64,000 bases of DNA from the NCBI GenBank assembly GCA_018402305.1, contig JAGYJE010000006.1, positions 1 through 64,000 on the forward strand. Direction: 5' to 3'. This DNA comes from Puniceicoccaceae bacterium. GTDB lineage: Bacteria; Verrucomicrobiota; Verrucomicrobiia; Opitutales; Coraliomargaritaceae. The notes beneath the pieces are model-generated. The model was not told the DNA's origin and did no database searches. It saw only the letters and a program-made list of their open reading frames with translations. Position numbers and translations under genes: made by a program. Below are positions 10,151 through 54,572 of this stretch, piece after piece. How positions within the stretch are numbered: the stretch's first letter is position 1; every line of letters begins with the position of its first letter.

Positions 10151-10220
10151 CGGGCGCTGTTTACCGGGCGCTGCTTACTGGGCGCTGCTTATCCGGCGCT
10201 GCCTACTGAGCGCTATTTAA
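10151..10220. repeat. Five tandem 14-bp units after purL
   Basis: The units cgggcgctgtttac, cgggcgctgcttac, tgggcgctgcttat, ccggcgctgcctac and tgagcgctatttaa run without gaps from 10151 to 10220. Each unit is two alternating 7-bp words, gggcgct and gcttact. Confidence 0.85.
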
Positions 10221-10240
10221 AAAACACGTCCGTGACTACG

Positions 10241-10404
10241 GTGCGCTTACCAAGTGCGCTTACCAGGCGCGCTTACCAGGCACGCTTACCAGGTACGCTT
10301 ACCAGGTACCCTTACCAGGTACGCTTACCAGGTGCGCTTACCAGGTGCGCTTACCAAGTGCGCTTACCAAGTGCGCTTACCAAGTGCGCTTACCAAGTGC
10401 GCTT
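10241..10404. repeat. Twelve and a half tandem 13-bp units overlapping the 3' end of a small gene
   Basis: Twelve full 13-bp units of gtgcgcttaccaa/g and one partial unit run from 10241 to 10404. Read on the minus strand the unit is CGCACTTGGTAAG, which contains the last codons (Arg-Thr-Trp) and the stop of the small gene at 10390-10485. The outer units are identical or nearly so; the middle units (10267-10331) have diverged. Confidence 0.9.
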
Positions 10405-10485
10405 CTTGTGGCGATTTGCCTTCAAGCGCTTACGGCGCTTGTGCTTATTCATCTTGAGACGACGCTTTTTCTTGAGGTTACCCAT
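10390..10485 (-). CDS. AURKAIP1/COX24-domain small basic protein (mS38-like ribosomal-type protein)
   Basis: A 31-residue protein, [20 protein letters not shown] then [11 protein letters not shown], on the minus strand with a TAA at 10390-10392. More than half the residues are Lys, Arg or His. The MxKHKRRKRxKxxRHK core is the AURKAIP1/COX24 (DUF1713) signature; mitochondrial mS38 belongs to this family, and short bacterial members are known in Bacteroidetes, Chlamydiae and Verrucomicrobia. A role on the small ribosomal subunit is inferred from that relationship. Its last four codons lie in the innermost copy of a 13-bp tandem array that extends away downstream, so the stop context was probably duplicated repeatedly. 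Confidence 0.78.
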
Positions 10486-16661: not shown

Positions 16662-16940
16662 TCGTAGGCAGGTTGGCTCCGCCGCCTGCCGCGGCGTTGT
16701 TGCGGCACGTTGCCGATCGTAGGCAGGTTGGCTCCGCCGCCTGCCGCCGCGTTGTTGGTCGCACATCGTGATTATCAACGAGTGTCGATTTGACGAAAAA
16801 GTCGAACCGCTCGACCAACAACACCGCACCGGGCGGCAGAGCCAACCCGGCTACGTAATCCGCACCAATAACACCGCGCCAATAACACCGCACCGACAAC
16901 ACCGCACCGGGCGGCAGAGCCAACCCGGCTACGTAACCCC
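16662..16940. repeat. Family D repeat cluster, two direct copies then two inverted copies
   Basis: Copies starting cgtaggcaggttggctccgc at about 16663 and 16719 are followed by reverse-complement copies (gcagagccaacccggctacg) at about 16835 and 16912. The unit is about 40 bp and ends gcgttgttgg. The same family lies at 20600-20842, 22965-23165 and 33716-33745. Confidence 0.9.
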
Positions 16941-20599: not shown

Positions 20600-20842
20600 C
20601 CGACAACACCGCACCGACAACACCGCACCGGGCGGCAAAGCCAACCCGGCTACGTAGGACGCGGCAAATCCGTAGGCAGGTTGGCTCCGCCGCCTGCTGC
20701 AGCGTTGTTGGCCGCAGCTTGTGATCGCCGATACACCAAAATCTGCTTAAAGATTCAAATCGCTAAACCGACAACACGACACCGACAACCCACAACACAA
20801 AACCGGGCGTCCGGCAGCGGCCGGACAACCCGGCTACGTCAG
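20600..20842. repeat. Family D repeat cluster upstream of the phosphoesterase
   Basis: Copies of the gccaacccggctacgtag / cgtaggcaggttggctccgc repeat occur in both orientations from about 20600 to 20842, with the gttgttgg tails facing outward. No gene is present between 20516 and 20901 apart from these. Confidence 0.85.
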
Positions 20843-22655: not shown

Positions 22656-22967
22656 ATGCAGCAAGTCTTCACCCACCACGACAGCGCCCTAATCGGGCTC
22701 CTGGACGGCATCCTCAAGGAATCCGGCATCCCCACGCTCCTGAAAAACTGGACCGGCTCGAACATCGTGGAAATACCCATCCCAAGCCTCTACCCCAGTA
22801 TTTTCGTCCTGGACAACGCCCACGCCGCCGAGGCGCGCGAAATCATCGAGACCTATTTAAATCACAGCGAAACCGCGCGCCCCGACTGGGACTGCCCCAA
22901 CTGCCACAGCCCCGTCGACGGCTACCTCGGCGAATGCTGGTCCTGCCAGGCCCTGCGGCCCACGTAG
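22656..22967 (+). CDS. DUF2007-domain protein with C-terminal zinc ribbon
   Basis: A 103-residue protein beginning MQQVFTHHDSALIGLLDGIL, which matches the DUF2007 pattern of a short ferredoxin-like domain (SALIGLLDGILKESGIPTLL and LYPSIFVLDNAHAAEARE). A four-cysteine knuckle follows, DCPNCHSPVDGYLGECWSC, likely to bind one zinc. The family is annotated as putative signal-transducing or nitrogen-related, but its role is not known. In-frame ATGs at 22608 and 22641 are alternative starts. The first would overlap the isochorismatase stop, hinting at coupling. Family D repeats begin right after the stop. Confidence 0.75.
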   Translation: MQQVFTHHDSALIGLLDGILKESGIPTLLKNWTGSNIVEIPIPSLYPSIFVLDNAHAAEAREIIETYLNHSETARPDWDCPNCHSPVDGYLGECWSCQALRPT

Positions 22968-23215
22968 CCGGGTTGGCTCCGCCGCCCGGTGCAGTGTTGT
23001 TGGTGCGTTTTACGTAGCCGGGTTGGCTCCGCCGCCCGTTGCGGTGTTGTTGGTCGAGCGGTTCAACTTTTTCGTCAAATCTACATCCGCCGACAATCAC
23101 AACCTGCCGCCAACAACGCAGCAGCAGGCGGCGGAGCCAACCTGCCTACGACGATCACAACGGGCGGCCAACAACGCAGCAGCTTAAGCAGCCGCTCCCA
23201 GTTAGGCCACGGGGC
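22968..23215. repeat. Family D repeats followed by a family H right half
   Basis: Two direct copies (cgtagccgggttggctccgc) at about 22964 and 23013 are followed by an inverted copy (ggcggagccaacctgcctac) near 23130. The family H words agcagccgctcccagttagg follow at 23187-23206. The VapBC pair begins shortly after. Confidence 0.85.
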
Positions 23216-30132: not shown

Positions 30133-30873
30133 ATGAAACAACGACACCGAATACACGCCACCTTTACGACCGCCTTGGGTGCGGGCTTATGTTTACTCGC
30201 CCTCAGCGCCCAGGCGCAGGAGGCCGCCGAAACGGTCCCCGAAAGCAACACCTCCCTGCTCGGGCTTTTGCAGCAGGGTGGCTGGGCCATGTTCCCGCTC
30301 GGGCTGACCGCCCTCTTCATGTTTTTCCTCATCTTCTACTGCTGGCGCGAGACCCGCCTGGGGCGCTTTGTGCCGGTGCCGCTCGTGCAGGCACTCAGCG
30401 AAAAGCTCCGTGTTCGTGACGTGGACGCCGCCCGGGGGCTCTGCACAAGCTTCAACTCAGTGCTCTCCCGCTGCCTCAACGGTGCGCTGAACAAGGCCCG
30501 CCCGGAGAAGGCCGACGGCAATCGCGAAAAAATCGAAGGCTCCTTCATGGATAACGTCGAGGCCGAGGACGGCGCCATCGGCCAGTGGATCAACTACCTC
30601 AACGTCGTCGCCGCGGTGGCTCCCATGATCGGGCTACTCGGCACGGTGAGCGGCATGATCAGCGCCTTCCAAACCATCGGTCAGGTCGGCATGGGGGATC
30701 CCAGCGCCCTGGCCGGTGATATTGGCGAAGCCCTCGTCACCACCGCCACCGGCCTGGTCATCGGCATCCCCGCCATGGTGGCCTACTTCATCTTCCGCAA
30801 CCGCCTCAACACCAACATCCTGAAAACCATAGAAACCGGCGGCAACCTCATCGACGAGCTGACGGAGACGTGA
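30133..30873 (+). CDS. MotA/TolQ/ExbB proton-channel family protein
   Basis: A 246-residue protein. The ExbB/TolQ fold is shown by the hydrophobic segment MFPLGLTALFMFFLIFY (about residues 54-70). Two further membrane helices lie in INYLNVVAAVAPMIGLLGTV and GEALVTTATGLVIGIPAMVA, with the typical GLLGTVxGM motif. An N-terminal signal-like stretch (LGAGLCLLALSAQAQ) precedes an extracytoplasmic tail, as in verrucomicrobial ExbB proteins. With an ExbD it forms a proton-driven stator that energises envelope processes. The two ExbD genes are at 32838 and 33274, with the VWA gene in between. All are on the same strand. Confidence 0.9.
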   Translation: MKQRHRIHATFTTALGAGLCLLALSAQAQEAAETVPESNTSLLGLLQQGGWAMFPLGLTALFMFFLIFYCWRETRLGRFVPVPLVQALSEKLRVRDVDAARGLCTSFNSVLSRCLNGALNKARPEKADGNREKIEGSFMDNVEAEDGAIGQWINYLNVVAAVAPMIGLLGTVSGMISAFQTIGQVGMGDPSALAGDIGEALVTTATGLVIGIPAMVAYFIFRNRLNTNILKTIETGGNLIDELTET

Positions 30874-30875
30874 GA

Positions 30876-31355
30876 GGGATGAAACCTGAGACTTGAAACT
30901 TGAAACCTGAAACTTGAGACCTGAGACCTGAGACCTGAAACTTGAAACCTGAGACCTGAGACCTGAAACTTGAAACCTGAGACCTGAAACTTGAAACCTG
31001 AGACCTGAGACCTGAAACTTGAAACCTGAGACCTGAGACCTGCCTGTCCAGCATAGCTCGAAGAGCGACGCTGGGAAACTTGAAACTTGAAACCTGCCTG
31101 TCCAGCATAGCTCGAAGAGCGACGCTGGGAAACCTGAGACCTGAGTCTTATTTAAAGCATCCCGATCCATTTCACCGATTCAGAAAAAAATTACCAAAAC
31201 CACTCAGGTCTCAAGTCTCAGGTCTCAGGTTCCCCCCCTCATCCCTCCAAAACCACTCAGGTCTCAAGTCTCAGGTCTCAGGTTTCCCCCCTCATCCCTC
31301 CAAAACCACTCAGGTCTCAAGTCTCAGGTCTCAGGTTTCCCCCCTCATCCCTCTA
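30876..31355. repeat. Family A inverted module with family L inserts (about 480 bp)
   Basis: From the base after the ExbB stop the purine-rich agggatgaaacctgag units run to about 31145. They include two gcatagctcgaagagcgacg (family L) blocks at about 31050 and 31107. After a gtcttatttaaagc core the reverse-complement units (actcaggtctcaagtctcag) run to five bases before the VWA start. No gene. Confidence 0.9.
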
Positions 31356-32404: not shown

Positions 32405-32835
<431 letters not shown>

Positions 32836-32837
32836 CC

Positions 32838-33251
32838 ATGAAAAAACTAAGACGCCGACATCAGGAACCTGAGGATTTCGCCATGGCCCCCATGATCGAC
32901 ATGGTGTTTTTGCTGCTGGTCTTTTTCATGACGGTGGCCTCGGTGGCGAAGAGTCAGCGGACGGTCGAGCTGGATCTGGCCGAGTCGGAGCAAAGCAAGA
33001 TCCCGGAGGACGCCTCGGGGCGGGGCATTCTCTCGGTTGATGCGGAGGGGGTCTATTACATCGGCGACCAGCCGCAGAGCCTTGAAGCGATCAAGGAATC
33101 CATCGCCGCCCGCATCCGGCAGGAACCGGAGCTGCAAATCCAGGTGCGGGCCGACCGCACCACGGAATACGCCGCCGTCCAGAAACTCCTCAAAGCCGCC
33201 GCCGAATCCGGCGCCTACGAAATCATTTACGCCACCTTTGAAGCGAGATGA
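32838..33251 (+). CDS. ExbD/TolR-family protein (first)
   Basis: A 137-residue protein with a short cytoplasmic tail, one membrane helix ([17 protein letters not shown], about residues 20-38) and a periplasmic domain. The stretch [12 protein letters not shown] carries the conserved Asp in the helix that conducts protons in TolR/ExbD. The ATG follows directly on a family B array ending atcctcc with no visible Shine-Dalgarno. The second ExbD gene starts 22 bases after this stop. Two different ExbD proteins alongside one ExbB probably make a heteromeric stator. Confidence 0.9.
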
Positions 33252-39900: not shown

Positions 39901-40494
39901 GTGTCCGAAGACGATTCACCTAAAGTGCCTGTCACCCCACCCGAGCAGTGGGTCGATCTCTATGGCGATTACCTCTACGGCTTCGCTATGTCGCGCTTAC
40001 GGAATCCCGATGCGGCGGCCGATTGCGTGCAAGACACCTTTTTGGCCGGAATCAAGGCCCTCGATCGCTTTGACGGAAGCCGCGACATCAAGTTTTGGCT
40101 GCGCGGCATCATGCGCAACAAGATCGTCGACCAGATACGGAAATCCATCAAGGAGAATAAAGTCGATATCGATAAGGAGGACGAAGCCCTCCTCGAAAGC
40201 TTTTGGTTCAAGTATAGCGGAATCGCCACAACCAACCCGGACCCCTGGCAATTCAACCCCAGGAAGTACTACGATAATGGTGAATTCTGGGTCGTATTCG
40301 AGAAATGTATCGCGAAGGTTAAAAATCCCGCCCGTCAGGCCTTTATCCTGCGGGTGCTCGAAGATCAAACAACAGAAGAAGTTTGTAAGGCAATGGACAT
40401 CACACCGAACTATCTTTGGGTCCTGCTCCATCGCGCCCGTGAACAGCTCAAGGTTCACCTCGAAGCGAACTGGACAGGCAACGACGCAAAATAG
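39901..40494 (+). CDS. RNA polymerase sigma factor (sigma-70 family, ECF-like)
   Basis: A 197-residue sigma-70 family protein starting from GTG at 39901 (MSEDDSPKVPVTPPEQWVDL). Region 2 is shown by DCVQDTFLAGIKALDRFDG and IKFWLRGIMRNKIVDQIRKS; region 4 by TTEEVCKAMDITPNYLWVLL and HRAREQLKVHL, a helix-turn-helix for the -35 element. An unusual 45-residue segment, acidic then aromatic (KENKVDIDKEDEALLESFWF), lies between the regions. A short gene with an HxxxCxxC motif follows after 11 bases and is its probable regulator. GTG is the only suitable start. Confidence 0.85.
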   Translation: MSEDDSPKVPVTPPEQWVDLYGDYLYGFAMSRLRNPDAAADCVQDTFLAGIKALDRFDGSRDIKFWLRGIMRNKIVDQIRKSIKENKVDIDKEDEALLESFWFKYSGIATTNPDPWQFNPRKYYDNGEFWVVFEKCIAKVKNPARQAFILRVLEDQTTEEVCKAMDITPNYLWVLLHRAREQLKVHLEANWTGNDAK

Positions 40495-40505
40495 ACTGAT
40501 TTCAA

Positions 40506-40781
40506 ATGTTAACCTGTAAACAAGTTTCCAGCGCACTCTCCAAGGAGGCGTATCAGAAAATGCCGCCGCTGCGCCGCTTTTTCCTGCGTCTTCACGTCAA
40601 GTTATGCGTGTTTTGCGGTAAGTTTAACCGTCAAGTCATGGAGTCTCAGGAAATGTGCCGCTGCTATCGGGAGCATGAGGAGTCCTTGTCGCCGCACCGC
40701 CCGAAACTTGACACCGATCGCAAGGATGCACTGAAGGATCTTTTGGCCTCCCAGCAAATTCATTCGAAGCCGAACGAGTAA
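40506..40781 (+). CDS. Small HxxxCxxC protein, putative zinc-binding anti-sigma factor
   Basis: A 91-residue protein with H30, C34 and C37 in HVKLCVFC, the HxxxCxxC zinc-binding signature of ZAS anti-sigma factors. The N-terminal Cys4 (MLTCKQVSSALSKEAYQK) could be the fourth ligand. A basic middle (PPLRRFFLRLHVKL) could bind the sigma factor. No membrane segment is apparent, so it would be cytoplasmic. It is tightly coupled (11 bases) to the sigma factor upstream. The role is inferred from the motif and position. Confidence 0.65.
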   Translation: MLTCKQVSSALSKEAYQKMPPLRRFFLRLHVKLCVFCGKFNRQVMESQEMCRCYREHEESLSPHRPKLDTDRKDALKDLLASQQIHSKPNE

Positions 40782-40791
40782 GCTGTTCCCA

Positions 40792-41035
40792 AATTCCTCA
40801 CCTCTCCGAGGGAAGGGGGACCGCGCGCAGCGCGGTGGAGGGGTGCCGGCTGTAATGACGGCCTAGCTCCTTTTCGTCATCGATGCCGAATTGGTTCGCG
40901 TGATTCGAGCAACCCCCTTCCCACCTGGCAAGCAGGTGACCTTCCCCAAGGGGAAGGAGTTTTTAAGTCGCCCCAATTCCTCACCTCTCCGAGGGGAGGG
41001 GGACCGCGCGCAGCGCGGTGGAGGGGTGCCGGCTG
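40792..41035 (+). repeat. 244-bp direct repeat, left copy (family F)
   Basis: The block begins aattcctcacctctccgagg and ends gaggggtgccggctg. It contains two 60-bp family F units (each with ccgcgcgcagcgcggtggag) separated by 124 bases, starting taatgacggcctagctcc and including cctggcaagcaggtgacctt. The right copy at 41669-41912 has the same length and nearly the same sequence. The DUF559 gene lies between them. Confidence 0.9.
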
Positions 41036-41118
41036 GACGTAAAACGAGACGACACATTTTGATTTGGCATCGAAGCCTTGGAACCTATTCTTATCCCATC
41101 GCGAAAGAACAGTCAGAG

Positions 41119-41487
41119 ATGAATCGCAAGGAGCTTAAGCCTTTGCGGAGAAAACTGCGGAAAAATCTAACTCCGGCAGAAGCACGCCTCTGGACCTACC
41201 TCCAAGGCAAAAAGCTGGCGGGTCGAAAATTCCGGCGGCAACACAGCGTTGGGCCCTACATACTCGACTTTTTCTGTGCCGCTGAGAAGTTAGCCGTCGA
41301 ACTCGACGGACAGGCCCACGATGGTCCGATTGCGGCCAAGCACGACGCCGAGCGCACCGCCTATCTTGCCCAATACGGCATCGAGGTGATCCGCTTCGAG
41401 AACAAGACCGTTTTCGAGATGCCCGACGCGCTCCTCCACCGCATACAGGAACGTTTTAAGGACTCGCCGAAACCGTCTCACGATTAG
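41119..41487 (+). CDS. DUF559-domain endonuclease-like protein
   Basis: A 122-residue protein with the DUF559 (VSR-like, PD-(D/E)XK) fold. The start MNRKELKPLRRKLRKNLTPA is followed by AEARLWTYLQGKKLAGRKFR, RQHSVGPYILDFFCAAEKLA, VELDGQAHDGPIAAKHDAER and YGIEVIRFENKTVFEM, all family features; the Asp of LDF and the EL.DG acids would bind the metal. It is bounded by 244-bp direct repeats at 40792-41035 and 41669-41912. An ATG at 41119 is the only suitable start. Function in moving the repeats is suggested by position but unproven. Confidence 0.85.
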   Translation: MNRKELKPLRRKLRKNLTPAEARLWTYLQGKKLAGRKFRRQHSVGPYILDFFCAAEKLAVELDGQAHDGPIAAKHDAERTAYLAQYGIEVIRFENKTVFEMPDALLHRIQERFKDSPKPSHD

Positions 41488-41520
41488 GACTTCGAGCCTA
41501 CCCCTTCCGGTCGGGCACCA

Positions 41521-41640
41521 TGCTTCGCTCCTCGAGCTTCCGTCTACGCTCCTCGAGCTTCCGTCTACGCTCTTCGAGCTTCCGTCTACGCTCCTCGAGC
41601 TACGCCGGACAAGACGCCGGACAAGACGCCGGACCACCTT
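41521..41640. repeat. 21-bp and 12-bp tandem repeats downstream of the DUF559 gene
   Basis: Four copies of a 21-bp unit (cgctcctcgagcttccgtct plus a) at about 41527-41601 are followed by three partial copies of ccggacaagacg. The 21-bp period is three 7-bp steps. The remainder to 41668 is a family F lead-in. Confidence 0.8.
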
Positions 41641-41668
41641 CCCCAAAGGGGAAGGAGTTTTTTGCCGT

Positions 41669-41912
41669 AATTCCTCACCTCTCCGAGGGGAGGGGGACCG
41701 CGCGCAGCGCGGTGGAGGGGTGCCCGCTGTAATGACGGCCTAGCTCCTTTTCGTCATCGATGCCGAATTGGTTCGCGTGATTCGAGCAACCCCCTTCCCA
41801 CCTGGCAAGCAGGTGACCTTCCCCAAGGGGAAGGAGTTTTTAAGTCGCCCCAATTCCTCACCTCTCCGAGGGGAGGGGGACCGCGCGCAGCGCGGTGGAG
41901 GGGTGCCCGCTG
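41669..41912 (+). repeat. 244-bp direct repeat, right copy (family F)
   Basis: Same block as 40792-41035: aattcctcacctctccgagg, ccgcgcgcagcgcggtggag, cctggcaagcaggtgacctt, then a second ccgcgcgcagcgcggtggag, ending gaggggtgcccgctg. A few single-base differences distinguish the copies. Confidence 0.9.
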
Positions 41913-42008
41913 AGGTAGCGCCCAGCTCCTTTTCACCATAGCGGCCGACTTGCGTCGTGTAGTTCGTAGTCGGTAGATACTTGTTTAAAACTCACGAAAT
42001 CACAAATT

Positions 42009-43874
42009 TCACTCCGGCAAGGCCGGCAGCGTGATGCGGGCACGGCCATCACCCGAGCCCCCGCCCTCCACGATGGCGCGGCGCTGCCCTTGCAACAGCG
42101 TCACACGATGCCCGGAAACGCGGCCGCGCTCATCGTTGACCACCGCGTCTCCCTCCAAAACTACCTTGCCCTCTTCAGGCAAAATAAAGGCGGTTTCCGC
42201 CGTGGACGTCCGACCGGTCTGCGCGATCACGACATCGCCGTGCGCTTCAATCCGCTCCAGCTGAAGCGAGGCTGCCCCACCACGCCCCGAATCCGGTGCC
42301 TCTCGGGCGATCACATCGAGACGCTCACTGGTCGCCCTTAAATTCGTCGCCTCGACCTGCACCGACTCGGTGAACCGAAATAAAGTATGAGCGGTCTCTT
42401 CAATCATTTGAAGGACCTGGCTGGTTACCATCGTTTCTGTCTTCTCAATCGACCCCGCCTCTTTCGATACGCTCGAAGCGCTTTCGGATTCTCCTTCTTT
42501 TGTTTCCGTTAAATCGTAGCCGAGGTCGGGCAGTGGCGGCAAGCGGACTCTGACTGGATCGTCCGATTCACCGCGAATAATGGCGCGGCCGGGCTTGAGC
42601 TCCATACTTCGGCCCGTCACAACCGCCTCTCCATTGGTCACCTGCGGTTCCCCGGTCAAGACGGCGCGTTGCTCGTCTGGAAAAAAGGTGACGTGTTCAC
42701 CTGTAGCCAACTGGCCGTTCTGCTCGATTTCAACCGAGCCCGCCGCCATGACACTCTGCACTGCGCCCACTCGCAGTTCGTTGCCCTCGGAGGCCCGAGC
42801 GCCGGCAGCCTCGGGAATCGACACGATCGTCATCTCATTCGCGCGCAGCTGCAGGGCTCCGGAAAGAGCCTCCACCGCTCCATCAAAGAGAAAGCGGTTC
42901 TCGTCAAGCCCTTCCCGCATCGTAATCCTATCGGCGAGCACGATGGTCTCCGCACTGAGTGCCGAAGTCCCCTGCAGACCGAGCCCGCCCGTCTCAGAAA
43001 GAATCATCTGCGCCCGCCCGGCACCTTTGGCACCGGAGAGCACGATCTCGCCCGACTCGCTGCGGATACTCTGACCACTGAGGTAGGCGCCCGGGGTCGT
43101 TACGCTCGTGTTTCCGGTTAAAATCGCCCGCTTCTCACGGGGGAAGAACTCCGCTTCGTCGGCCTCCACGATCTTGCCCGATTGAATAATGGTGACTGCA
43201 TCCTCAGCGAAAATTCGGCGCAGGGCGTCCAGCTCGGTCGGTGCCGTCGGCGCGGCCGCCGAGCCAACGCGGCCCTCGGGCGGGTCCGCCTCGGCGATGA
43301 GTCGCCCGCCCTTTAAGTCCATTTCCTCGGAGCGCGCCTTCACCTGCCCGGTGAACTCGAAATAGTAGGCCGTCTCCGTGGTGCGGAGGAGCAGGCGCTC
43401 GCTGCGGATCTCGGTTTGTTGCTCCGTCTCGCTCTCGGACGCCCCAAAGGCACTGGCAATACTCTGGGTGAATTGCACACAGGTATTCGTTTTCACCACG
43501 ATTTCCTTCGTCTCCCCGGACCATTCCCAAGCGATCCCGGTTATTCTGAAATTCGCCCCGATGATTTCAATGGCGTCCTCGGAAAAAGCGCGGTTTTCCT
43601 CCAGGAGTAAAGTCGCCTCCGGGCTGTCCAGCGAGAGTTCAAGCGCCATCCGCTCATCGCCGGAATAAACCCGCAGCGCCATCCCCTCTACCCGTATTTG
43701 TTCCGCGCTGTCATAAATGCCCTGATCTCCCTGCAAAACCCAATCGGTGTAGCCATTATCCCCAAAGCGTGGGAAACGGAAATCCTGAACCGGAGCACTC
43801 GGCGCCATCTGCCCCGCAAGCGAGCCGCCAAAACAGAAAAAACCGAAAAAGAAAACCCGTCGCATACCTTGCAT
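42009..43874 (-). CDS. OstA/LptA-like LPS transport or envelope protein
   Basis: A 621-residue protein. An N-terminal signal peptide (MRRVFFFGFFCFGGSLAGQM) precedes a beta-rich mature part. Repeated OstA/LptA-type segments such as GIYDSAEQIRVEGMALRVYS, EAEFFPREKRAILTGNTSVT, EHVTFFPDEQRAVLTGEPQV and TSTAETAFILPEEGKVVLEG form beta-jellyroll sheets that carry lipopolysaccharide in Lpt systems. It is much longer than LptA and may be a periplasmic bridge or an LptC-LptA-like fusion. No other lpt gene is near. An ATG at 43865 is an alternative start. The specific role is inferred. Confidence 0.7.
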   Translation of the reverse strand: MQGMRRVFFFGFFCFGGSLAGQMAPSAPVQDFRFPRFGDNGYTDWVLQGDQGIYDSAEQIRVEGMALRVYSGDERMALELSLDSPEATLLLEENRAFSEDAIEIIGANFRITGIAWEWSGETKEIVVKTNTCVQFTQSIASAFGASESETEQQTEIRSERLLLRTTETAYYFEFTGQVKARSEEMDLKGGRLIAEADPPEGRVGSAAAPTAPTELDALRRIFAEDAVTIIQSGKIVEADEAEFFPREKRAILTGNTSVTTPGAYLSGQSIRSESGEIVLSGAKGAGRAQMILSETGGLGLQGTSALSAETIVLADRITMREGLDENRFLFDGAVEALSGALQLRANEMTIVSIPEAAGARASEGNELRVGAVQSVMAAGSVEIEQNGQLATGEHVTFFPDEQRAVLTGEPQVTNGEAVVTGRSMELKPGRAIIRGESDDPVRVRLPPLPDLGYDLTETKEGESESASSVSKEAGSIEKTETMVTSQVLQMIEETAHTLFRFTESVQVEATNLRATSERLDVIAREAPDSGRGGAASLQLERIEAHGDVVIAQTGRTSTAETAFILPEEGKVVLEGDAVVNDERGRVSGHRVTLLQGQRRAIVEGGGSGDGRARITLPALPE

Positions 43875-43949
43875 AGAATTAAGAAACCGTCTTGTTCACT
43901 CAGGTTCCAGCCTTTAATGAGGGACCTTTCAACCCTGACTTGCCTAATT

Positions 43950-44170
43950 CCTCACCTTTTCGAGGGGAGGGGGCCCGCGCGCAGCGCGGTGGACTTGCCG
44001 TAATTCCTCACCTCTCCGAGGGGAGGGGGACCGCGCGCAGCGCGGTGGAGGGGTGCCCGCTGAGGTGACTGGGAACGGCTGCTTCAGCTGCCGACTTGTG
44101 TCATGCAGTTCGTAGTCGGCAGATACTTGTTTAAACTCACGGATCACCATGCGGCAGCTGAAGAACCACA
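43950..44170. repeat. Family F and family H repeats
   Basis: Two family F pieces (cctcaccttttcgaggggag at 43952 and ctcacctctccgaggggagg at 44005) are followed by a family H pair (actgggaacggctgcttcag at 44069; gcggcagctgaagaaccaca at 44150) around an acttgtttaaac core. No gene before 44184. Confidence 0.8.
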
Positions 44171-44183
44171 GCGGTTGCCAGCT

Positions 44184-44612
44184 TTAGCCCATGCGCGGTT
44201 TCTTTATCGTTGGCTTGATTCGTTCCGGGCGGAAGGGCTGGTCAAAGGCTTTGGAGAATGGGTACCCGCCGGAAAAATCCTCAACACTGTCCTGGTCGGT
44301 TTTCCCGAGGACGTTGCTCTCAACAAGATTAAAGACGATATTTCCAAAGTCGCGGCATTCTTTGATGCCCCAATGCTCAAGCACCGGACGCGCCATGGGG
44401 CCATACTGATTGATCGCATAAAGCCGAATGCCTTCAAGTAACTGACCGCCACTGAGGTGGTTCGACTTATCCAACTCGCCGCGCTTGTGCAATTCTTTGA
44501 GGCTGTAATCCAAGGCTTGCCGCAGGAAATAATAAGCCCCACGCGCATAGCGGGGGTCGTCCTTGCGGATCGCACGAATCACTTCATTAAAATCTCTGCT
44601 GGGATCGTTCAC
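44184..44612 (-). CDS. Minf_1886-family protein
   Basis: A 142-residue protein matching the Minf_1886 family, small conserved proteins of Verrucomicrobia and Planctomycetes of unknown function. Diagnostic segments are DPRYARGAYYFLRQALDYSL, SGGQLLEGIRLYAINQYGPM, LEHWGIKECRDFGNIVFNLV and GKTDQDSVEDFSGGYPFSKA. There is no signal peptide, so it is cytoplasmic. It is the strongest single indicator of the taxonomic setting. The gene starts 72 bases from thrB, on the same strand. Confidence 0.85.
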   Translation of the reverse strand: MNDPSRDFNEVIRAIRKDDPRYARGAYYFLRQALDYSLKELHKRGELDKSNHLSGGQLLEGIRLYAINQYGPMARPVLEHWGIKECRDFGNIVFNLVESNVLGKTDQDSVEDFSGGYPFSKAFDQPFRPERIKPTIKKPRMG

Positions 44613-47662: not shown

Positions 47663-48685
47663 ATGAAAACAGCCATCATCGGTGCTTCCGGCTACTCCGG
47701 CGAAGAACTTGTCCGCCTGCTCTCACGCCATCCCTTTGTCGAACTGGCCATGGTGACCTCGCGCTCACTCGCGGGCAAACGGCTGGCTGACCAAATGCCG
47801 GCACTGCGGCACCTCGTCGGCGAGCTGGCGTTTTCTGCTTCAGATCCGGCTGAACTGGCTGCTAACACGGACATTGAGCTCTTCTTCCTCGCTCTCCCGC
47901 ATGGCGTTGCCTCGGAATTTGCCGAGCCCCTCTTTCAAGCCGGAAAGACCGTTATCGACCTGAGCGCTGATTTTCGCCTGGGCTCGGCCAGCCTTTATCA
48001 AGCCTCCTATGACCAACCGCACCCCGCACCCCACCTCCTTGAAGCCGCTCCCTATGTACTTCCGGAACTGGCCGACGATGCCTGGAAGGCCGCTTCTCTG
48101 ATCGCCTGCCCGGGTTGCTATCCGACCAGCATTCAACTGCCACTCGTCCCTCTTCTCCGGGCCGGCCTCATTCAGCCAAAGGGCATCATCATCGATGCCT
48201 ACAGCGGTGTCAGCGGAGCAGGGAAAAAAGTCGCCGAAAACTTTATCTACTGCGAACGCAACGAGAGCATGAGGGCCTACAGTCTGCCGGGCCATCGGCA
48301 TGTCTCCGAAATCGAAGAGCAACTTGGCCGCGCCGCCTTTACTGATTGCGTCGTCCAATTCAGCCCCCACCTCGCACCGATGACGCGGGGCATCTCCACG
48401 ACAATTGTCGCGCAGATCAAAGCCTCCATCGGCGAAATCTATTCTTGCTGGGAAAAGGCCTACGCCGATAAACCCTTTGTCTCCGTGCTCTCCAGTGGCA
48501 CCTTCCCCGATACCAAACACGTGACCGGCACCAACCGCTGCGACCTCTCGGCGATCCACGATCCACGCACCGATAATCTCGTCATCACTTCCGTCATCGA
48601 CAACCTCCTCAAAGGCGCCAGCGGTCAGGCCGTCCAAATCATGAACCTTAAATACAGCTTCCCCGAAACCGCTGGACTCCTCTAA
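47663..48685 (+). CDS. argC: N-acetyl-gamma-glutamyl-phosphate reductase
   Basis: A 340-residue NADPH-dependent dehydrogenase reducing N-acetylglutamyl phosphate to the semialdehyde in arginine synthesis. The dinucleotide-binding motif is IIGASGYSGEELVRLLSRHP at the N-terminus; the nucleophile lies in IACPGCYPTS and the catalytic His in PGHRHVSEIE. The start at 47663 (MKTAIIGASGYSG) was chosen by family similarity; the upstream frame covers the terminator. It begins argC-argJ-argB-argD-argF, all on the plus strand, separated by 81-115-base gaps largely made of repeats. Confidence 0.95.
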   Translation: MKTAIIGASGYSGEELVRLLSRHPFVELAMVTSRSLAGKRLADQMPALRHLVGELAFSASDPAELAANTDIELFFLALPHGVASEFAEPLFQAGKTVIDLSADFRLGSASLYQASYDQPHPAPHLLEAAPYVLPELADDAWKAASLIACPGCYPTSIQLPLVPLLRAGLIQPKGIIIDAYSGVSGAGKKVAENFIYCERNESMRAYSLPGHRHVSEIEEQLGRAAFTDCVVQFSPHLAPMTRGISTTIVAQIKASIGEIYSCWEKAYADKPFVSVLSSGTFPDTKHVTGTNRCDLSAIHDPRTDNLVITSVIDNLLKGASGQAVQIMNLKYSFPETAGLL

Positions 48686-48689
48686 AGCC

Positions 48690-48769
<80 letters not shown>

Positions 48770-50005
48770 ATGTCCGCAGTTATTCCAGTCCAACTTATTG
48801 AAGATCCTCAGGGCCTCTCCGATTGCCCGGGCTTTCAAACGGCCGCGAGCGCTTGCGATATACGTGAAACCGGTGATACCACCCGCCTCGATCTGGCCCT
48901 GCTCTCGGCAGGCAAACCCTGCCATGCAGCGGGCGTCTTCACACAAAATGATGTCTGCGCCGCTCCCGTGCACGCCTGCCGTGCCATCCTCGCCAGTCCC
49001 ACAGCTAAGGTCGGCGGCATCGTTGTCAACAGTGGCAATGCCAACGCCGCCACCGGTGCATCCGGCATGCGCGATGCCAAAGAAATGGCCGCCCTCGCTC
49101 AGTCCGAAACGAATACTGAAGCACCCTTCCTGGTCTGCTCCACCGGCCGGATCGGCCGGAAACTCCCGATGGGAGAAATTCGCAGCGGCATTGCCAACGC
49201 TGCTCGCAGCCTCAACGAAAGCCCCGAGAACTCCCTCGCGGCCGCCGACGCCATTCTTACTTCGGATACCCGCCGTAAATGCGCTACGGCCCGGTTCCAC
49301 TACAAAACAAAGACCATCACTGTGGCCGGTATCGCCAAGGGCGCCGGTATGATCGAGCCCAATATGGCGACCATGCTCGCCTTTCTTGGCACTGATCTCG
49401 CCGCCGACAATACCGCACTCAAAAATACCCTGACCCGCGCCTGCAATCAGACGTTTAACCGTATCTCCATCGACGGCGATATGAGCACTAACGATACCGT
49501 GCTTCTACTAGCCAACGGATACTCACAACTCGAGCCAAACGAAGCCCCCGAACTCATCCAGGCCTTTCGGGAAGCTGTTTACAAGGTCTGCGATGCGCTC
49601 GCCGAGAAAATCGTGGGCGACGGCGAGAAGGTCACAAAACTCATCGAGCTTGTCGTTGAGGGCTGTACCAATGAACAGGATGCCGAAAAGGTCGCGCGCG
49701 CGGTGGGTAACTCCCTCCTTGTGAAAAGTTCCTGGTATGGCTCCGACCCCAACTGGGGGCGCCTTGCCTGCGCCGCTGGCTACGCGAGCATTGGTCTCAA
49801 GGAGAGCTGCTTTGACATCCATTATGATGATGTGCCCGCCATCCTCGGGGGCATCCCTCAGGATGCCAATACCGCTCTCTGGAAACAGATCGTGGCCAAA
49901 AAACGTTTCCGCATAACCTTGAATTTTAATCAAGGAAACCACTCCTTCCGCCTCCTCACCAGCGACCTTAGCGAAGCCTACGTCAACTTCAACAAGTCAG
50001 AGTAA
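48770..50005 (+). CDS. argJ: Glutamate N-acetyltransferase / amino-acid acetyltransferase (ArgJ)
   Basis: A 411-residue ArgJ that transfers the acetyl group from N-acetylornithine to glutamate, recycling it through arginine synthesis; many versions also make the first N-acetylglutamate. The self-cleavage site is visible as KGAGMIEPNMATMLAFLG, cut before the Thr, near residue 190. FTQNDVCAAPVHACRAIL, NSGNANAATGASGMRDAKEM and the C-terminal GRLACAAGYASIGLKESCFD are also typical. It follows argC and a family B array. A long antisense frame exists opposite but lacks any family match. Confidence 0.95.
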   Translation: MSAVIPVQLIEDPQGLSDCPGFQTAASACDIRETGDTTRLDLALLSAGKPCHAAGVFTQNDVCAAPVHACRAILASPTAKVGGIVVNSGNANAATGASGMRDAKEMAALAQSETNTEAPFLVCSTGRIGRKLPMGEIRSGIANAARSLNESPENSLAAADAILTSDTRRKCATARFHYKTKTITVAGIAKGAGMIEPNMATMLAFLGTDLAADNTALKNTLTRACNQTFNRISIDGDMSTNDTVLLLANGYSQLEPNEAPELIQAFREAVYKVCDALAEKIVGDGEKVTKLIELVVEGCTNEQDAEKVARAVGNSLLVKSSWYGSDPNWGRLACAAGYASIGLKESCFDIHYDDVPAILGGIPQDANTALWKQIVAKKRFRITLNFNQGNHSFRLLTSDLSEAYVNFNKSE

Positions 50006-53351: not shown

Positions 53352-54572
53352 TCACCTGAACACCGCCCGTCGCAAGGCATTGACCACCGCGACATCCCCC
53401 CAGGGTGCCCCACGCGCTGTCTGCGGAGTCACCGGGTACCGTCGCCCACGCCCCGCCTGCCACGCCGCCGCATAGCCCCGAACAAACTCCGCCGTGCCCA
53501 GCACAGCCCCATCCGTGAAATAACGCACCCGGCAGCGCAGGACCACCGACATCGGTAGCTCGCCATTCTCCTCGTTCAAGACCCGCTCCGCCGTCGCCCG
53601 GTCAATCCGCTTCCCCCGGCAATCCCAAGGAGAAGCCCCCTTCCCAAAGATCAAACTCCGATGCGCCGCCAAAGCCGACTTTAAACGGGCCCCGTGTCTC
53701 GCATCCCGCGCCCCGTCTCTCGCATCCCGTAGCTCGCCACCCGCATCCCGTAGCTCGCCACCCGCATCCCGCACCCCGGATCTCGCATCCCGCACCCCGG
53801 ATCCCGAATCCCGTATCCCGCCACCCGTATCCCGTATCCCGCCACCCGTATCCCGTATCCCGCCACCCGTATCCCGTATCTCGCCACCCCTATCCCGCAG
53901 CTCGCCACTCGCATACGTCGCCCAAACCACCCCCAGCCCATGCTGCGCCTTCAGATGCCCCGCCACCGCCTCCGCATAGCCGCACCAGCGGTAGTCCTTC
54001 GGATCCTCCACCAGCCCCGCCCGAACCGGGTTCAGGTCGATATAAGCTGCCATCGTCTCGTAGCGGGATTGTCCTTCCTCCACCAGCACACTCTTAAAAC
54101 GGTCCATCCACAAGGTGCCCAGTCGATTGTCATGGTTCCGGTTATACCAGATCGAAAAGCGCTGCTTCAGCGTCTTCATGAACTCCGACAAATCGTGCAT
54201 CCGGGCCAATAGCTGCGCCCGCACCGCTACTGCTTCCTCCGTCCCCTCGCGCAGAGCGCTCTCCAAACGGGCAAAGGACGCCGTCTGATACCGTGTCGGC
54301 TTCGGGTAGAGTACCTTAAAGCGCCGCAGGAGCTCCGCATCCGAGACCGCCCGGTCCTTCTCCGGCACCCGCACCAGCACATGGAAGTGGTTGCTCATGA
54401 TCGAATACGTCAGCACCTCCACCCCCGAAAAATCCGCCACCCGCCAGAGCAGACGCCGCAGCACCTCCTTCTCCCGGTCACCCAAAAGCATCTGCCCACC
54501 CACAATACGGCTCATCGCATGGTGGATAACTGTAGATTTCTTCGACACCAATCTGCGTATTCGTTTTCCCAT
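53352..54572 (-). CDS. REP-associated tyrosine transposase (RAYT), IS200-like HUH family, with its own repeats in frame
   Basis: A 406-residue Y1-HUH transposase starting at 54572 (MGKRIRRLVSKKSTVIHHAM). The metal motif is NHFHVLVRVP with H62 and H64; the catalytic Tyr is probably Y143 in IWYNRNHDNRLGTLWMDRF, the RAYT signature. RAYTs act on dispersed REP-type repeats in trans. Residues 223-296 are a ten-fold 7-residue repeat (GGGIRDT, GGELRDA and variants) encoded by family B heptads at 53685-53906. A longer frame starts at GTG 54593. The C-terminal ORF beyond the insert is intact (KSALAAHRSLIFGKGASPWD onward). Catalytic activity cannot be judged. Confidence 0.85.
   Translation of the reverse strand: MGKRIRRLVSKKSTVIHHAMSRIVGGQMLLGDREKEVLRRLLWRVADFSGVEVLTYSIMSNHFHVLVRVPEKDRAVSDAELLRRFKVLYPKPTRYQTASFARLESALREGTEEAVAVRAQLLARMHDLSEFMKTLKQRFSIWYNRNHDNRLGTLWMDRFKSVLVEEGQSRYETMAAYIDLNPVRAGLVEDPKDYRWCGYAEAVAGHLKAQHGLGVVWATYASGELRDRGGEIRDTGGGIRDTGGGIRDTGGGIRDSGSGVRDARSGVRDAGGELRDAGGELRDARDGARDARHGARLKSALAAHRSLIFGKGASPWDCRGKRIDRATAERVLNEENGELPMSVVLRCRVRYFTDGAVLGTAEFVRGYAAAWQAGRGRRYPVTPQTARGAPWGDVAVVNALRRAVFR
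53685..53906 (-). repeat. Family B heptads in the RAYT coding sequence
   Basis: On the plus strand the units cccgtat, cccgcca and cccgtat repeat about 30 times in three-unit groups (21 bp). The translated repeat is seven residues long. Similar arrays lie at 32698-32830 and in the arg cluster. Confidence 0.9.

Follow-up and report, generated by a model that had tools for sequence, protein, structure and literature searches.

Short palindromic repeats are common intergenic sequences in bacteria, and for some of their families the spreading enzyme is not known. Described systems that come close to the locus presented here include the REPtrons, in which a RAYT (TnpA-REP) gene is found with GTAG-tagged REP repeats, according to the parts of PMC3733652 and PMC8266576 available to us. 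Others are the EDxHD homing endonucleases (e.g. I-Bth0305I, structure 3r3p; available part of PMC3943268) and the Rickettsia palindromic elements, which are about 150 bp long, carry no nuclease gene and place palindromic DNA in frame in many unrelated genes; some of them are CGTC-tagged (excerpts of PMC10969869 and PMC3733652). A DUF559 gene has already been placed in the EDxHD homing family (available text of PMC9403480), so the kinship of this nuclease is not new, and a Caulobacter DUF559 protein, VsrA, was read by its authors as a predicted mismatch-repair endonuclease (available text of PMC12907096). The Pfam description of the DUF559 family, PF04480, still gives "unknown function".

Compared with these excerpts, the DUF559 elements are like a REPtron in that one gene is bordered by inverted, tagged hairpins and many dispersed gene-less units occur, paired and arrayed, and REPs of these families also lie inside repair and tRNA-synthetase genes. 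They are unlike a REPtron in the enzyme, a predicted PD-(D/E)XK/EDxHD-like nuclease that is unrelated to RAYTs and is not an HUH tyrosine transposase, in the tag (GGGGTGGT-like or GGTGAGGGG-like, not GTAG), and in showing several gene copies per genome as well as gene-carrying in-frame insertions. With the EDxHD homing endonucleases, as far as the excerpt describes them, they share the predicted fold of the catalytic domain and the recurrence at the same place in orthologous genes; unlike them, DUF559 was not found in an intron or intein here, it has hairpin ends and miniature derivatives, and the 122-aa protein of the window (the whole stretch of 64,000 nucleotides analysed, from a Puniceicoccaceae bacterium) has no added DNA-binding region. 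The in-frame palindromic DNA recalls the Rickettsia elements as excerpted, whereas the elements here carry their own gene and another tag. CGTC-tagged REP/RPE combine that tag with stems that start with AT pairs (part of PMC3733652), whereas the hairpin stems of the window start with C-G pairs. Filed only as a DUF559 member, the gene would, by analogy, work like a REPtron, a homing gene and the Rickettsia palindromic elements.

In the window, two blocks of 244 nt each (40792-41035 and 41669-41912; 99% identical, 877 nt from start to start) enclose an intact DUF559 ORF with its ATG at 41119 and a stop codon ending at 41487 (122 aa); the two blocks and the complete 122-residue gene between them are as the initial annotation had described. 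The ORF matches PF04480 with 110.3 bits (E 5.6e-32; curated cut-off 20.6) and thus belongs to the family; the only other Pfam match is a weak one to PF18741, and no transposase domain was found. Further block pieces, which the initial annotation had assigned to its family F at 43950-44062, were located at 43943-43993 and 44002-44062. The features of the locus are as follows.

39901-40494: sigma-70-like gene, neighbour of the array
40506-40781: anti-sigma-like ORF, neighbour (profile match below the curated cut-off)
40782-42008, no strand: whole inserted array, 1227 bp between the anti-sigma-like ORF and the LptA/LptC-like gene
40792-40963, + strand: miniature element 1 (L1 40792-40847, middle, R1 about 40911-40963)
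40975-41661, + strand: DUF559 element (L2 40975-41030, gene, R2 about 41499-41661)
41119-41487, + strand: DUF559 nuclease gene (122 aa, PF04480)
41669-41840, + strand: miniature element 2 (L3 41669-41724, middle, R3 about 41788-41840)
41852-41907, + strand: L4 unit, with no R unit after it
42009-43874: LptA/LptC-like gene, neighbour, converging
43943-44062, + strand: beyond the LptA/LptC-like gene, a partial L unit (43943-43993) followed by L5 (44002-44057)

Dissection into units gave five full L units and three R units in the order L1-R1, L2-DUF559-R2, L3-R3, L4 and, past the next gene, a partial L and L5. An L unit consists of a hairpin, a second hairpin and the tag GGAGGGGTGCC; an R unit consists of the tag CCCCCTTCC or CCCCTTCC followed by hairpins, and the gene-less units have a middle of ~64 bp. 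The same layout as L2-DUF559-R2 is repeated at another locus, L010 in genome G033. The 244-bp block is therefore L-middle-R-spacer-next L of a tandem array and not the unit, and the true element is L2-gene-R2 (40975-41661). Since the array is built of L-R units, the 244-bp direct repeat is a register artefact. The composite unit of 1.1 kb bounded by direct repeats, as initially proposed, was rejected: unlike the gene of a composite transposon, the window gene is not bounded by two complete element copies and lies in its own L-R pair. What holds of that proposal is mobility, which is well supported by the association and the empty sites described below. Rfam at the gathering threshold gave no match in 40400-44300, and PADLOC gave none. 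We note that the R end of the DUF559 element is interrupted at 41528-41606 by about four tandem TCGAGCTTCCGTCTACGC-like units. A 50-nt repeat (90% identical) follows both L4 (41940-41989) and L5 (44086-44135); its copies may be what is left of a different type of right end.

The reading of the protein as a PD-(D/E)XK-like nuclease, already made in the initial annotation, agrees with its predicted fold. An AlphaFold2 model (42 rows) reached a pLDDT of 89.4 and a pTM of 0.82, and its Foldseek matches at E <= 0.001 are a sequence relative, 3hrl (N. gonorrhoeae NGO0050), and two chains of the I-Bth0305I homing endonuclease catalytic domain in 3r3p (3r3p_B: E 2.8e-4, TM by target 0.73). Going by this model, DUF559 has a PD-(D/E)XK-like fold of the EDxHD homing endonuclease type. 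Eight residues (E21, W25, Q41, E61, D63, H67, R79 and R92; putative catalytic residues) are invariant in 131/131 rows, namely the window, 70 of 80 loci (the 10 with stops being left out) and 60 in-frame copies. The dN/dS ratio is 0.03-0.12 in 11 of 14 pairs, the other three being saturated. Because of these invariant residues and the homing-endonuclease-like fold, it is plausible that the nuclease spreads the repeat, as had been suggested from the outset.

The initial annotation had named the association of DUF559 genes with the repeat in other genomes as a check. Our DUF559 scan gave at least 532 relatives, and the best 80 were kept; these come from Bacteroidota, Verrucomicrobiota, Planctomycetota, Nitrospirota, Pseudomonadota, Acidobacteriota and others. 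Of the best 80, 72 have flanks of at least 150 bp upstream and downstream. When the two flanks of each of these loci were aligned to one another in inverted orientation, 34 loci scored at least 40 vs 1 of 785 control placements in the same loci; direct repeats were found in 34 loci vs 7 of 785. For the hairpin count, four loci were added, giving 84 rows, 76 of them with flanks (L001 is the window, and one locus appears as both L010 and L014). Within 400 bp of the gene, 61 of the 76 loci have a pyrimidine-rich hairpin upstream, 55 have one downstream and 46 have both, as compared to 19, 15 and 1 of 586 control placements; these locus counts overstate independence, as several loci are syntenic relatives (e.g. 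seven of Hymenobacter). In 30 of the 76 flanked loci, no hairpin was detected on one or both sides. A common form of the end is CTCCCCTCCTT-loop-AAGGAGGGG, followed by a second hairpin and then, towards the gene, GGGGTGGT. The end tags are G-rich (GGGGTGGT-like, GGAGGGGT) and not GTAG; a tag regular expression, written after the ends had been seen, finds a match next to 78 of 119 hairpins on the side facing the gene, and next to 28 on the side facing away from it. Thirteen loci of a plasmid collection (43 records matched) were read by eye, including cyanobacterial, Deinococcus, Neisseria and alphaproteobacterial ones, and all 13 have a hairpin on at least one side. In this collection, DUF559 genes are placed between sufB and sufC, between transhydrogenase subunit genes, and between paaD and paaZ. 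E. coli ycjD has a hairpin downstream only. The DUF559-repeat association is thus far wider than first claimed.

As a control, genes of another small nuclease (GIY-YIG) have such a hairpin on either side in 0 of 30 loci, most of which we take to be one subfamily, which makes this control narrow. The idea that CGTC repeats go with the GIY-YIG nucleases found no support, the core motif being on both sides in 0 of the 30 loci. We also observed a further outer inverted repeat, GCATATCCTTATACA, beyond the hairpins of L003, L004, L006 and L011, which come from the same family as the genome of the window; by eye, L006 and L011 look truncated or internally deleted.

The ends also occur away from the gene. 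The 244-bp block has 25 matches in its own 3.1-Mb genome, four in the contig of the window and 21 on ten other contigs, so its recurrence is more than chance; DUF559 itself has one match there. Units of the L type (18 in total), of the R type (14) or of both types were found in each of 13 further stretches of this genome, which cover the other 21 matches; in several of these stretches they alternate L-R-L-R with short spacers. A search of 56 genomes with the block gave good matches in G000 and G033 and weak ones in G041 and G022. The hairpins do form in the folds predicted for single-strand DNA, but shuffled versions of the window units are nearly as stable (fold-energy z of -1.67, -2.22 and -1.36 for window L units, -5.34 for the L015 end and -0.42 for the L107 end), so fold energy alone proves little.

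One end hairpin, CCCCTCCT..AGGAGGGG, is present in 25 of 30 genomes of DUF559 loci, with up to 65 copies, and the reversed pattern in none. In 295 genomes of one class, it was found in 36 of 139 genomes with DUF559 vs 5 of 156 without (379 vs 15 copies; Fisher p 1.2e-8, kinship being ignored), and the reversed pattern in three genomes, once each. Since the end sequences vary by lineage, many DUF559-bearing genomes (103 of 139) lack this particular hairpin. Another pattern, CTCCTCCT..AGGAGGAG, was dropped as a marker because it is too rare (7 of 295 genomes). Between the 61 loci with an upstream end, end similarity goes with protein similarity (Spearman 0.42 over all 1830 pairs, and 0.39 over the 1117 between-phylum pairs, with a Mantel p of 0.0005, the floor of 2000 permutations).

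These results bear on whether DUF559 is a passenger, that is, whether REP-like hairpins are moved by another enzyme such as RAYT, the known partner of GTAG REPs (according to the part of PMC3733652 available), and the gene was merely caught between two of them. Hairpin arrays without DUF559 inside do exist, and the five DUF559-free genomes that bear the hairpin would fit this. We consider a passenger unlikely, as it is the same kind of gene that sits between the ends at the 46 two-sided loci in many phyla, the end sequence co-varies with the DUF559 protein between phyla, and the GIY-YIG genes lack such hairpins.

Empty sites had also been named as a check, because a simple tandem duplication would lack them, and they were found for the window site and for acs. 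With the association confirmed as well, neither of the two outcomes that the initial annotation had listed as refuting was observed. The sigma protein of the window matched in 14 of 14 genomes of the genus. Twelve sigma loci (own included) were compared, with most of the gene covered at 86-100% identity, and in a 13th genome the gene is split over two contigs. In two of the loci (L245 of G031 and L246 of G033), the three neighbour genes are adjacent and the last gap is about 70 and 91 bp, respectively, vs 1227 bp in the window; in the other nine of the 12 loci the LptA/LptC-like gene was not found next door, which makes them uninformative for the presence of the array. The window array is thus an insertion that is absent at the orthologous place in two genomes of the same genus. 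Genome G033 has its own DUF559 gene (83-85% identical to that of the window) between the same repeats, elsewhere on the contig with the empty site; no reciprocal empty site was found for this copy, as the window matches only its left flank.

In the genus of G178, acs was matched in all seven genomes, two with a DUF559 insert and five empty (two of the five look identical over the compared stretch, and G211 is split over two contigs). The insert of G178 is in frame, starts with AACCCCATCCCTAACCCTTCCCC and ends near GAGCCGGAGGGGGT. No target-site duplication is visible at acs, where the relatives are 77-86% identical over the query stretch and a very short one could be missed. In the acs copies the hairpin is internal to the tag, the opposite order to that of most intergenic ends, which suggests that an end is similar to a tagged REP-like unit for which both pairing orientations are possible. 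As in insertion sequences with MITEs, gene-carrying and miniature forms share their ends; unlike in these, DUF559 is the only gene, no transposase domain was found in it, and no target duplication is visible at acs within the limit just given.

For the Deinococcus plasmid copy, no relative carrying its flanks was found and hence no empty site. E. coli ycjD was tried as a strain-level empty site and rejected as not clean, as the other strains read have an efflux operon there. The ycjD query hits one place with at least 80% query coverage in 3362 of 5426 genomes. Among four E. coli strains (L105, L109-L112 and the L272 region), K-12 has ycjD in the sapF-fabI interval and the other three have the efflux operon beside sapF; Nissle has no annotated ycjD between sapF and fabI. 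In Hymenobacter, a palindromic hairpin stretch in L058 and L060 replaces other sequence of L056, L059, L063, L065 and L067, and a 405-bp stretch unique to L059, beside its DUF559 unit, has no such hairpin ends.

In Bacteroidia, DUF559 was also found within host proteins. Among the best 150 matches of a scan of this class (more exist), 61 are in open frames of at least 500 codons; 59 of these and one frame of 451 codons make up our in-frame set of 60. At least 80 codons stand on both sides of DUF559 in 57 of the 60 (the exceptions are L153, L159 and L160). Hosts confirmed by Pfam at 16 loci are acetyl-CoA synthetase (Acs), MetH (two sites), leucyl-tRNA synthetase (LeuRS; two sites), RecJ, MutS, RecG (two loci), methylmalonyl-CoA mutase, isoleucyl-tRNA synthetase (IleRS), a SpoIIE hybrid, an Eco57I-type methylase, HsdR, CoA-transferase III and a UvrD-type helicase; those of the other in-frame rows were assigned by eye from the flanks. 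The hairpins are part of the translated frame, giving peptides such as PSPRGKG and LSHGEGLGVRS. Hairpins with a stem of at least 6 flank DUF559 on both sides in 47 of the 60 loci, vs 0 of 506 controls; 54 loci have one upstream and 52 have one downstream. The 16 host ORFs hold host domains and DUF559 and no protein-splicing domain at E <= 1e-8, so they are not inteins. In an HsdR of G033, from the genus of the window genome, an insert of 170 aa stands opposite 0 aa in the Proteus and Vibrio homologues. These in-frame copies suggest a mobile nuclease that persists unspliced in LeuRS, MetH, MutS and others.

It is very improbable, in our judgement, that DUF559 is an ordinary Vsr-like repair gene whose hairpins are transcription terminators or local duplications. 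The hairpins are often at gene ends, and the Caulobacter VsrA has been read in this way (PMC12907096, in the text available), but hairpins also occur in frame inside ORFs, a single genome can hold as many as 65 copies, and there are orthologous window and acs sites from which the whole unit is missing. Terminators and local duplication were rejected on the empty sites and the in-frame copies.

A tree of 142 DUF559 domains (few columns, with a large number of weak forks) contains one group of 56 rows (support 96/79), made up of 55 of the 60 in-frame copies plus the HsdR copy of L002; the remaining five in-frame copies are among stand-alone genes. The site labels are clustered on this tree, with 26 changes vs a shuffled mean of 59.6 (0 of 200 shuffles as low), and repeated changes are needed for LeuRS site A (7), LeuRS site B (5), MetH site A (3) and Acs (3). 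Near relatives are found in unrelated genes (RecJ with Acs and CoA-transferase; RecG with IleRS). Clustered labels together with repeated site changes suggest that a copy can both stay at its site over time and pass to another gene.

Homing alone, in which an EDxHD-type gene re-enters fixed orthologous sites by break repair, the hairpins have no role of their own and a new site is reached only by a rare accident, would account for the predicted fold of I-Bth0305I and for DUF559 being at the same LeuRS, MetH and Acs sites in different genomes. It would leave unexplained the numerous gene-less L-R copies, and it is at odds with the several site changes on the tree and the close relatives in unrelated genes; we regard it as improbable.

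We favour, as the probable explanation, a nuclease-encoding palindromic mobile element with miniature derivatives and with DUF559 between L and R ends; that the nuclease is the mover is what we infer. Each end consists of one or two hairpins and a G-rich tag, with the two ends in inverted arrangement, and gene-less L-R copies would be non-autonomous derivatives. The element would enter as a unit, into intergenic gaps (also within operons) and, in Bacteroidia, in frame into conserved proteins, where both ends and the nuclease would be translated as part of the host protein. The DUF559 nuclease may recognise the ends by their hairpins and tag, possibly in cruciform or single-strand form, and cut at the ends or at a target; repair would then copy the L-R unit to a new place. 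The short R-to-L spacing in arrays suggests insertion beside existing ends. Selection would retain harmless insertions, which lie either between genes or, in frame, within important genes from which the element is hard to lose.

In the published literature searched, no description of a DUF559 element with hairpin ends, miniature copies and in-frame life was found, and it is these three aspects that appear to be new here. With the nuclease as candidate enzyme, another large repeat set gains a defined element that has two ends, miniature copies and empty sites. Its mobilisation thereby becomes directly testable, and PF04480 gains a testable function. If the nuclease proves to be the mover, these elements would be a class of mobile DNA of their own. 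We give even odds to a wider proposal, in which another great superfamily of palindromic repeats, with neither a GTAG nor a CGTC tag and present in many phyla, has DUF559 as its dedicated mobilising nuclease. Such a class of mobile DNA would move through the action of the nuclease on its hairpin ends, and its members in Bacteroidia would be protein-coding over their whole length, unspliced in essential enzymes.

The window contains other dense tandem arrays (32653-32903, 48680-48795 and 53651-53964; 30852-31061; 10214-10434), whose units are a 14-nt CCCGTATCCCGCAT-like, a 14-nt TGAGACCTGAAACT-like and a 13-nt GGTGCGCTTACCA-like sequence, none of them related to the sequence of the hairpin ends. 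At 16663-16936, 20600-20784 and 22954-23152, CGTAGGCAGGTTGGCTCCGCCGCC-like repeats of 40-164 nt occur in both orientations; this family may be another palindromic element.
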